The notes below the pieces were generated by a model, which had not been told where the DNA came from, ran no database searches, and saw only the letters and a program-made list of their open reading frames with translations. A program made the translations under genes and the position numbers. 64,000 nt of DNA from the NCBI RefSeq assembly GCF_950295315.1, contig NC_080175.1, forward strand, positions 87,568,161 to 87,632,160. Direction: 5' to 3'. The DNA is from Erinaceus europaeus. Lineage: Eukaryota; Chordata; Mammalia; Eulipotyphla; Erinaceidae. Positions 465 to 52,924 of this stretch are shown piece by piece; positions within the stretch are counted from its first letter, which is position 1, and each line of letters starts with the position of its first letter.

Positions 465-1965
465 GGCCGCCAGCTATAGACCAATTTCTCTCCTCTCCGT
501 GTGTTACAAACTCCTTGAGAGGCTGCTTCTGTCACGTATTTCTCCTCTTACAGAGAAATTCCTATCACCCGCCCAAGCTGGTTTCCGCCCAGGAAGATCT
601 ACCTGCGAACAAGCCCTGGCCCTCTCAACTTACATTGAAAATGGATTCCAGAAGAATTTAAAGACGGATGCTGTCTTTGTTGATCTCACAGCAGCCTATG
701 ACACGGTCTGGCACCGTGGTCTCCTAGTCAAGATCTCAAGATGCCTGCCTCCATGGGTGGCCAACACTATATCGTTTCTTCTCCAAAACAGAAGATTCCG
801 GGTACATCTGGGTGACAAGTCTAGCAGATGGAGACTTGTCTCAAGTGGCCTCCCCCAGGGCTCTGTTCTGGCTCCTATGCTATTTAATATTTACATCAAT
901 GACCTCCCAGAAACTTCTTCAAGGAAGTTCATCTACGCCGATGACATCTGCTGTGCAACTCAGGCATCCAAGTTCGACATCCTTGAGGAAACACTCACGA
1001 AAGACATGTCTCTGATATCTGATTACTGTAAAAAATGGCAACTAATCCCTAGCACTGCAAAAACGGTATCATCTGTTTTCCATCTACACCATGCCTTGGC
1101 CTCACGTGAGCTTAATGTGCAGCTTGGCGGTACGAGAATCTGGCATGAAGCCCAGCCAGTCTATCTTGGCGTTACTCTCGATCGCACCCTGTCATTTCAC
1201 GAACATTTCATAAAAACTGAAGCAAAGGTGGGCGCGAGGAATCACATCATTGCAAGACTGGCCAGCTCCTCATGGGGCGCGAGCGCTTCCACACTACGAT
1301 CATCATCTCTGGCATTATGCTATTCCACTGCAGAATACTGTGCCCCAGGATGGTTCTGTAGCCCCCATGTCCACGTGGTCGATTCCAAATTATATTCCTC
1401 CATGAGGATCATTTCTGGAACCATCCGTTCCACCCTGGTCCCATGGCTGCCAGTTCTTAGCAACATCACCCCGCCAGATGTTCATCGGGATGCGGCATCA
1501 TCTAAGTTCATTTCCCACGTCTACGCTCGACCGGACCTGCCAATATACGTGGATATCTTCGCCCACCCTGTCCAATGCTTGACGTCTCATCACCCAATCT
1601 GGTCCCCTATGCCTACACTGAACTTCTCTGTTCCAGACTCTTGGAAACAGAGTTGGCAGTCAGCTGAGGTAAAGAACAAACACCTCATCACAGACCCCTG
1701 CAAGCGTCCACCCGGCTTTGACCTAGCACGTTATGATCGGGCCCTCCTCAATCACTATCGAACAGGCCATGGCCGGTGCGCCGCTATGTTCCATCGCTGG
1801 GGAGCCAGAGACGACCCGAACTGCCCCTGCGGCTCCAGACAGACTATGACCCACATAGTCAGCGACTGCCACCTCTCCAGATTCAAAGGAGGTCTCGAAA
1901 CTTTACATCAGGCTCAACCTGACGCTGTTGACTGGCTACGGAAGAAGGGCAAACGCTAGAAGAAG
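465..1965 (+). mobile_element. 5'-truncated non-L1 LINE (jockey/CR1-like), copy 1
   Basis: A 1.5-kb insertion bounded by a perfect 12-bp direct repeat, AACCCAGACTCT, at 453-464 and 1966-1977. It is clearly more GC- and CpG-rich than its AT-rich surroundings, which suggests youth. It begins abruptly inside the reverse transcriptase domain, as expected for 5' truncation in target-primed reverse transcription. The last bases are the stop codon followed by AGAAGA. A second copy at 52654-52917 ends identically, which fixes the true 3' end. It resembles jockey/CR1-superfamily elements rather than L1; the exact clade needs a phylogeny. Confidence 0.92.
466..1959 (+). CDS. Partial LINE reverse transcriptase with C-terminal CCHC-like motif
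   Basis: An open frame of 497 codons to TAG at 1957-1959, encoding most of a LINE polyprotein. It would copy element RNA into DNA at a nicked target. Visible motifs in order: SYRPISLLS at the start (RT finger), AGFRPGRST (about residues 40-50), motif A VDLTAAYD with its Asp at 682-684, motif B GLPQGSVLAP at 847-876, motif C YADD at 934-945 with both catalytic Asp present, and a YLGVTLD block. The C-terminal CxC-x7-H-x4-C motif has Cys at 1822 and 1828, His at 1852 and Cys at 1867. The apurinic-type endonuclease expected upstream is missing, so the copy cannot be autonomous. The frame continues upstream to an ATG at 319, but that stretch is host SINE sequence, not element. There is no stop or frameshift anywhere. 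Motif spacing and the 'AAYDTVWH' form are jockey/CR1-like, unlike L1. Confidence 0.9.
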   Translation, partial: AASYRPISLLSVCYKLLERLLLSRISPLTEKFLSPAQAGFRPGRSTCEQALALSTYIENGFQKNLKTDAVFVDLTAAYDTVWHRGLLVKISRCLPPWVANTISFLLQNRRFRVHLGDKSSRWRLVSSGLPQGSVLAPMLFNIYINDLPETSSRKFIYADDICCATQASKFDILEETLTKDMSLISDYCKKWQLIPSTAKTVSSVFHLHHALASRELNVQLGGTRIWHEAQPVYLGVTLDRTLSFHEHFIKTEAKVGARNHIIARLASSSWGASASTLRSSSLALCYSTAEYCAPGWFCSPHVHVVDSKLYSSMRIISGTIRSTLVPWLPVLSNITPPDVHRDAASSKFISHVYARPDLPIYVDIFAHPVQCLTSHHPIWSPMPTLNFSVPDSWKQSWQSAEVKNKHLITDPCKRPPGFDLARYDRALLNHYRTGHGRCAAMFHRWGARDDPNCPCGSRQTMTHIVSDCHLSRFKGGLETLHQAQPDAVDWLRKKGKR

Positions 1966-39336: not shown

Positions 39337-40975
39337 GACACAGCACAAAACAATGTACAAAAATCAGTGACATTTCTTTATGCAAACAATAAATATGAAG
39401 AAGACATCCAGAAATCATTCCCATTCACTGTTGCAGCAAAATCAATAAAATACCTAGGAATAAAGCTGACCAAAGAAGTGAAAGACTTGTATACTGAAAA
39501 CTATGAGTCACTATTCAAGGAAATAGAAACTGATACCAAGAAATGGAAAGACATCCCATGCTCATGGATTGGAAGAATAAATATAATCAAAATGAATATA
39601 CTCCCCACAGCCATATACAAATTTAATGTCATACCCGTCTAAGTTCCACCAAGCTTCTTTAAGAGAATAGAACAAAATCTAGTCATTTATCTGGAACCAG
39701 AAAACACCTAGAATTGCTGAAACTATCTTGAGGAAAAGAAACAGACATGGAGGCATCACACTCCCAGATCTCAGACTATATTATAAGGCCATCATCATCA
39801 AAACAGTCTGGTACTGGAACAAAAATAGGCACACAGATAAGTGGAACATAACTGAAAGCCCAGAACTAAACCCCCACACCTATGGACATCTAATATTTGA
39901 TAAGGAGGCCCAAAGTATTAAATGGAGGAAGGAGGCTCTCTTCAATAAATGGTGCTGGGAAAACTGGGCCAAAATATGCAGAAGAATGAAATTGAAACAC
40001 CTTCTCTCACCAAAACCAAAAATCAACTCCAAATGGATCAAGGATATGGATGCTAGACCAGAAGCTATCAAATATTTAGAGGAAAACACTGGTGAAACAC
40101 TTTCCCACCTAAACCTCAAGGACATCTTTGATGATATAAACCCAATTGCAAGTAAGACTAAAGCAGAAACAAACCAATGAGACTACACCAAACTGAAAAG
40201 CTTCTGCAGAGCCAAAGAAACTATCACACAAACAAAGTGACCCCTCACAGAATGGGAGAAGGTCTTCACATGCCATACATCAGACAAGAGACTAATCAAC
40301 AAAATATACAAAGAACTCAGCAAACTTAGCACCAAAAAAACAAATCACCCCATCCAAAAATGGGCAGAGGATATGAACAAAACCTTCACTTCAGAGGAGA
40401 TCCAAATGACTAACAAACATATGAAAAATTGCTCCAGGTCGCTGATTGTCAGAGAAATGATAATAAAGACAACATTGAGATACCACCTTGCTCCTGTGAG
40501 AATGGCATACATCAAAAAGGACAGCAGCAACAAATGCAGGAGAGGCTATGGGGACGGAGGAAGCCTTCTGCACTGCTGGTGGGAATGTAAATTGGTCCAG
40601 CCTCTGTGGAGGGCAGTCTGGAGAACTCTCACAAGGCTAGACATAGACCTTCCATATGACCCAGTAATTCCTCTCCTGGGGATATTCCTCAGGACTCCCT
40701 AACACCCAACTGAAAAGATATGTGTACACCTATGTTCATAGCAGCACAATTTGTAATAGCTAAAACCTGGAAGCAACTCAGGTTCCCAACAACAGATGAG
40801 TGGCTGAGAAAGCTGTAGTATATATACACAATGGAATACTATATACAGCTATTAAGAACAATGAACCCACCTTCTCTGACCCATCTTGGATGGAGCTAGA
40901 AGGAATTATTTTAAGTGAGCTAAGTCAGAAAGATAAAGATGAGTATGGGATGACCCCACTCATAAACAGAAGCTG
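39337..40975 (+). pseudogene. L1 ORF2 C-terminal remnant
   Basis: Three open pieces (39337-39642, 39728-40180, 40373-40702) in different frames cover the end of the reverse transcriptase ([27 protein letters not shown]), the region with GGITLPDLRLYYKA and FNKWCWENW, and the C-terminal segment with [17 protein letters not shown], where Cys-rich motifs lie. Stops and frameshifts at about 39643 and 40180 and later mean no function. The catalytic FADD motif lies upstream and is absent. Confidence 0.9.
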
Positions 40976-52640: not shown

Positions 52641-52653
52641 TCTTTCACTACAG

Positions 52654-52917
52654 AACGTCAACCCGGCTTTGACCTGGCACGTTATGATCGGGCCCTCCTC
52701 AATGGCTATCGAACAGGCCATGGCCGGTGCGCCGCTATGTTCCATCGCTGGGGAGCCAGAGACGACCCGAAATGCCCCTGCGGCTCCAGACAGACTATGA
52801 CCCACATAGTCAACGACTGCCACCTCTCCAGATTCAAAGGAGGTCTCGAAACTTTCCATCAGGCTCAACCTGACGCTGTTGACTGGCTATGGAAGAAGGG
52901 CAAACGCTAGAAGAAGA
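52654..52917 (+). mobile_element. 5'-truncated non-L1 LINE, copy 2
   Basis: Flanked by ACTACAG at 52647-52653 and 52918-52924. The 264-bp insert matches the last 264 bp of copy 1 (about 1702-1965) with about eight substitutions and no indels, i.e. about 97% identity. Its end TAGAAGAAGA is the same as in copy 1. It is an independent insertion because the flanks, duplication and truncation point differ. Confidence 0.93.
52657..52910 (+). CDS. C-terminal fragment of the LINE polyprotein
   Basis: Frame preserved to TAG at 52908-52910, covering about 84 codons from PGFDLARYDRA to KKGKR. It contains the complete CxC-x7-H-x4-C motif. Differences from copy 1 include His to Gly in the ALLNHYRTG stretch, Asn to Lys before the first Cys, Ser to Asn before the last Cys, and Arg to Trp near the end. 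It has no catalytic domain. The frame extends upstream to 52578 by chance in host DNA. Not expected to be a gene; it is a record of the family. Confidence 0.85.
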
Positions 52918-52924
52918 ACTACAG

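Follow-up and report, generated by a model that had tools for sequence, protein, structure and literature searches.

The 64,000-nucleotide stretch of DNA analysed here (the window) comes from the hedgehog Erinaceus europaeus (contig NC_080175.1, positions 87,568,161 to 87,632,160 of the forward strand). At positions 465–1965 it carries a copy of a long interspersed nuclear element (LINE) that is truncated at its 5′ end and enclosed in a perfect 12-bp duplication. This copy likely belongs to Vingi, a LINE family of hedgehogs, and was likely left by target-primed reverse transcription; we put the probability of this reading at about 0.9. The non-L1 reverse transcriptase (RT) family at this locus would then be one already known from hedgehogs, and the locus itself is likely ordinary.

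A truncated LINE copy between exact target-site duplications

An exact 12-bp repeat, AACCCAGACTCT, brackets the element, so that the insertion spans 465–1965. Its plus strand is free of stop codons from 466 to 1956, and the frame closes with TAG at 1957–1959. The features are as follows.

453–464, no strand: 5′ copy of the 12-bp target-site duplication (AACCCAGACTCT), exact repeat
465–1965, plus strand: 5′-truncated Vingi-like LINE copy (a retrotransposon without long terminal repeats, LTRs), borders from the duplication, identity from homology
466–1956, plus strand: open frame of 497 codons, C-terminal half of an endonuclease–RT protein, with RVT_1 at residues 2–237 and the C-x-C-H-C motif at residues 453–468
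1957–1965, plus strand: stop codon TAG and tail AAGAAG, no poly(A), same end in copy 2
1966–1977, no strand: 3′ copy of the 12-bp target-site duplication, exact repeat

The original prediction, made from the letters of this stretch, had pointed to 497 codons without a stop, a perfect target duplication and a CpG-rich copy. All three are borne out; the observed/expected CpG ratio of the element is 0.63, against a window mean of 0.18 and a maximum of 0.40 (121 segments of 1.5 kb, base 2001 onward). The stop-free stretch of the element's frame reaches back to position 289, inside host DNA, so that the 5′ end of the element supplies no start codon.

The frame corresponds to the back half of an endonuclease–RT protein

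The window protein is a LINE-type RT (RVT_1, E = 1.2e-31, Pfam). The RT motifs VDLTAAYD and YADD and the C-terminal C-x-C...H...C motif are all present in frame, as had been predicted, and their key residues are invariant in a 42-row alignment: both aspartates of VDLTAAYD, Y157-A158-D159, C453, C455, H463 and C468. D160 is kept in at least 90% of the rows. Fold searches against solved structures showed that the predicted fold resembles R2 and LINE-1 ORF2p, with R2, L1, group II, retron, DRT and telomerase RTs among the matches. Pfam detected no RNase H in the window protein at E values up to 1, and the C-terminal end of that protein is complete. An RNase H entry was also absent from the best 50 rows of each fold search, which carries no proof. 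When three proteins were scanned with NCBIfam, only group II and Drt2 RT models appeared, far below their cut-offs.

In a first protein search, 7981 candidates were scored and 2122 of them matched at E up to 1e-5; the best 120 were used. Among these, the closest relative, P0001, is 94% identical; no other listed match exceeds 60% along the full frame or 62% along a portion of it. Query residue 485 is reached by 109 of the listed matches and none of these runs more than 10 residues past its aligned end, so the C-terminus of the window protein is natural. A second search, with P0022 as query (7997 candidates scored, best 120 of 503 matches used), found proteins of approximately 1,000 residues with an endonuclease and an RT. 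The window frame starts at median residue 500 (range 451–592) of 92 relatives of 950–1100 residues, taken from 103 new proteins. Judged by these alignments, the window copy corresponds to the rear half of the element and lacks both the endonuclease and the N-terminal part of the RT.

Nine long relatives were scanned with sequence profiles, and in eight of them we found endonuclease and RT but no RNase H. The endonuclease of the long relatives is of the APE type and N-terminal in the complete protein. The ninth, P0194, gave no endonuclease match; an RNase H of the LTR type precedes its best RT stretch, and this protein may be a fused gene model. In ten shorter matches scanned in the same way, RNase H was found in none and the endonuclease in four.

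A second copy with the same 3′ end

The 3′ end of the element recurs at 52656–52919 with 97% identity (8 differences per 264 bp). The second copy has a 7-bp duplication of its own, by which it spans 52654–52917.

52647–52653, no strand: 5′ copy of the 7-bp target-site duplication ACTACAG of copy 2, exact repeat
52654–52917, plus strand: copy 2, 3′ end of the same element with the frame open, ending TAG-AAGAAGA, 97% identity over 264 bp
52918–52924, no strand: 3′ copy of the 7-bp target-site duplication of copy 2, exact repeat

Both copies stop right after the stop codon, with TAG-AAGAAG at 1957–1965 and TAG-AAGAAGA at 52908–52917, and poly(A) is absent. The 3′ end thus adjoins the stop codon with a GAA-repeat tail, and any RNA signal for the RT near that end would therefore sit within coding sequence. 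A 3′ RNA hairpin was considered as a structural signal and dropped: in neither copy does the folding of the last 100 nt surpass that of shuffled sequences (z +1.46 and +0.73). When the 64-kb window was searched by tblastn with seven relatives, the two copies were recovered together with one antisense match to the start of P0001, and no further pieces or 5′ ends of the element were found. The number of copies within the 64 kb is two.

The antisense match concerns residues 1–20 of P0001, which match the antisense translation of the element at window positions 1538–1597 in 16 of 20 positions; the best of 500 shuffles reached 8. The source contig of P0001 likely holds a 5′-inverted copy, or else an assembly chimera. 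In L1, 5′-inverted copies are a product of twin priming.

Decay and age of the first copy

Decay was judged against 37 of the 42 matches P0002–P0043, those of at least 480 residues. The window copy and P0001 differ at 29 positions; the relatives assign 20 of these changes to the window copy alone and 8 to P0001 alone, with 1 tie. At the 166 columns conserved in at least 95% of these relatives, the window copy has a deviating residue at 13 and P0001 at 7. The seven of P0001 are all shared with the window copy, which leaves six private to the latter. Arginine is lost to Cys, His, Gln or Trp in 7 of the 20 private changes, which we read as the pattern that CpG decay would give, the codons of P0001 not being known. 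On the assumption that three quarters of changes are missense, the 20 missense changes suggest, very roughly, 1.8% substitution. At the rate of 2.2e-9 quoted in a passage of PMC12026660, this would very roughly place the split from P0001 at 8 million years ago, and CpG decay would make the age younger.

In simulated neutral decay (400 runs), the frame stayed open in 61% of runs at 1% substitution, in 33% at 2% and in 0.75% at 10%. Since a third of neutral runs stay open at 2%, the open frame is weak evidence of competence; it shows that the copy is fairly young, not that it is competent. The proposed youth of the insertion, with its perfect duplication, is therefore retained as relatively young, whereas the label 'coding-competent' has to be given up for a copy truncated at about residue 500 of about 1,000 and bearing 20 private changes, six of them at near-invariant sites. 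Because the front half of its protein is lacking, the copy is likely dead rather than a working element.

These observations can be accommodated by the following course. A full-length element elsewhere would have made the endonuclease–RT protein of about 1,000 residues, whose endonuclease would nick the target and whose RT would prime on the nick. Reverse transcription would then begin at the 3′ end of the RNA, in the GAA-repeat tail that follows the stop codon. Copying would have halted about halfway, leaving only the last 1.5 kb, with neither endonuclease nor start codon. The first copy would have drifted since, and would not be mobile by itself.

Family assignment

The element is likely a Vingi, because endonuclease and RT occur without RNase H in a hedgehog setting. 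Kojima, Kapitonov and Jurka, writing in 2011 (Mol Biol Evol 28:17-20), reportedly defined Vingi as the sister of Ingi without RNase H, and are said to have named Vingi-1_EE and Vingi-1_AAl in hedgehogs. The element had been called jockey/CR1-like and not L1. A non-L1 LINE RT it is, but the jockey/CR1 likeness is probably wrong or too strong, as the domain combination and host point to Vingi. Nor is this likely to be a new hedgehog lineage: passages of PMC5753468 and PMC3183009 cite a 2011 report of Vingi as a recently active non-L1 LINE in hedgehogs. In the part of PMC3183009 consulted, 311 copies of Vingi-1N3_EE with less than 1% divergence are given for E. europaeus. Vingi elements are also mentioned in passages on a locust transcriptome (PMC3391268) and on the lizard Anolis (PMC3747384, PMC7561263). 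A table in PMC12026660, as excerpted, gives 4476 'I-Jockey' LINE copies for Atelerix albiventris; that these are Vingi is our guess.

Vertical or horizontal origin

A tree was built from 110 rows, the window copy and 109 of the 120 listed matches, with its clades unlabelled; 11 matches, including the eel protein P0094, were omitted because their alignments covered fewer than 390 residues of the query. One clade of 52 rows contains the window copy and P0001 as a pair (support 100, stem length 0.53); the four insect-named rows fall in another clade. Among the matches listed by both searches, P0094 is the only one with a vertebrate name (58% identity over 70%); the other organism names are arthropods, and most rows carry none. 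P0001 aside, no match above 62% identity was seen among the best 120 of 2122, and hence no close donor.

According to a passage of PMC3183009, Vingi in hedgehogs counts as one of the 'older likely horizontal transfers'. Ancient traces of Vingi are known from human: X12_LINE in the genome (PMC5753468) and a single tabulated protein fossil of pre-amniote age (PMC9004415). The Vingi clade is thus of old standing in vertebrates, and the family may have descended vertically and then expanded in a recent burst. A bolder picture, which we regard as rather unlikely, is that the hedgehog LINE is of invertebrate or fish ancestry, reached its hosts by horizontal transfer and is still mobile in them. Such an element would have no 3′ untranslated region, an RNA signal recognised by the RT within its own coding end, and 5′ inversions arising by twin priming as in L1.

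Alternative explanations

That the first copy is itself a competent, currently mobile and horizontally acquired LINE seems highly improbable to us. The open frame, the conserved catalytic and zinc residues, the perfect duplication and the CpG content would suit such an element, and its acquisition would agree with the passage on horizontal transfer in PMC3183009. However, the N-terminal half with the endonuclease is missing, six private changes hit near-invariant sites, neutral simulation leaves the frame open in 61% (1% substitution) or 33% (2%) of runs, and the best identities after P0001 (60% whole, 62% part) point to no close donor. A vertically inherited relic of an old mammalian CR1/L2/Vingi radiation, kept by chance, is also very unlikely, if a shade less so. 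The human traces X12_LINE and the pre-amniote fossil would lend it a background, but it is hard to reconcile with an exact 12-bp duplication, a high CpG content, two copies that are 97% identical, 497 codons without a stop and a frame that survived in just 0.75% of the 400 simulated runs at 10% substitution.

We give next to no credence to a host gene domesticated from a LINE RT and held open by selection. The long open frame would fit, but the duplication and 3′ tail are those of a plain insertion, copy 2 ends alike, the private changes fall on conserved residues as in drift, and the element has no start codon of its own. Two points weigh against a dead, truncated Vingi copy, the explanation we prefer: the Vingi label rests on domain make-up and the hedgehog setting rather than on a labelled RT tree or the Vingi-1_EE consensus, and the C-terminal half could be expressed from an upstream host promoter.

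Other features of the window

Two long open stretches lie at 39683–40702 and look like the C-terminal part of an L1 ORF2. Positions 1–30000 hold five families of dispersed direct repeats (123–291 nt, 61–87% identical to the reference copy), presumably short interspersed nuclear elements of the hedgehog tRNA type. Rfam gave nothing at gathering score within the window and ARAGORN found no tRNA there. Scans of viral and prokaryote contigs with the protein gave 3 and 27 pattern matches, respectively, none confirmed as a relative.

Comparison with known systems

The interest of the family is that it was recently active in mammals without belonging to L1 or RTE, and that it may have been transferred horizontally. 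The 3′ end directly behind the stop codon and the 5′-inverted-looking relative bear on how the RT chooses and copies its template.

LINE-1 is the usual mammalian LINE, and its ORF2p aligns with the predicted fold over the whole frame; in contrast to LINE-1, the window copies have no poly(A) tail, and the sequence match to ORF2p is weak (E about 2e-4). R2 is the top sequence and fold match to the window protein among solved structures. However, R2 has a restriction-like endonuclease and a single target in ribosomal DNA, whereas the relatives of the window copy have an APE-type endonuclease. BovB/RTE, a patchy and horizontally mobile LINE in mammals, probably belongs to a clade other than that of the window element. 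The Ingi clade (trypanosome ingi and relatives), the sister group of Vingi, likewise combines endonuclease and RT, but Ingi carries RNase H, which Pfam profiles did not find in the window protein. Although the window copy is cut down to its last half, it is like Vingi in the endonuclease and RT of its relatives of about 1,000 residues, in the RNase H not found, in its recent activity and in its hedgehog setting.
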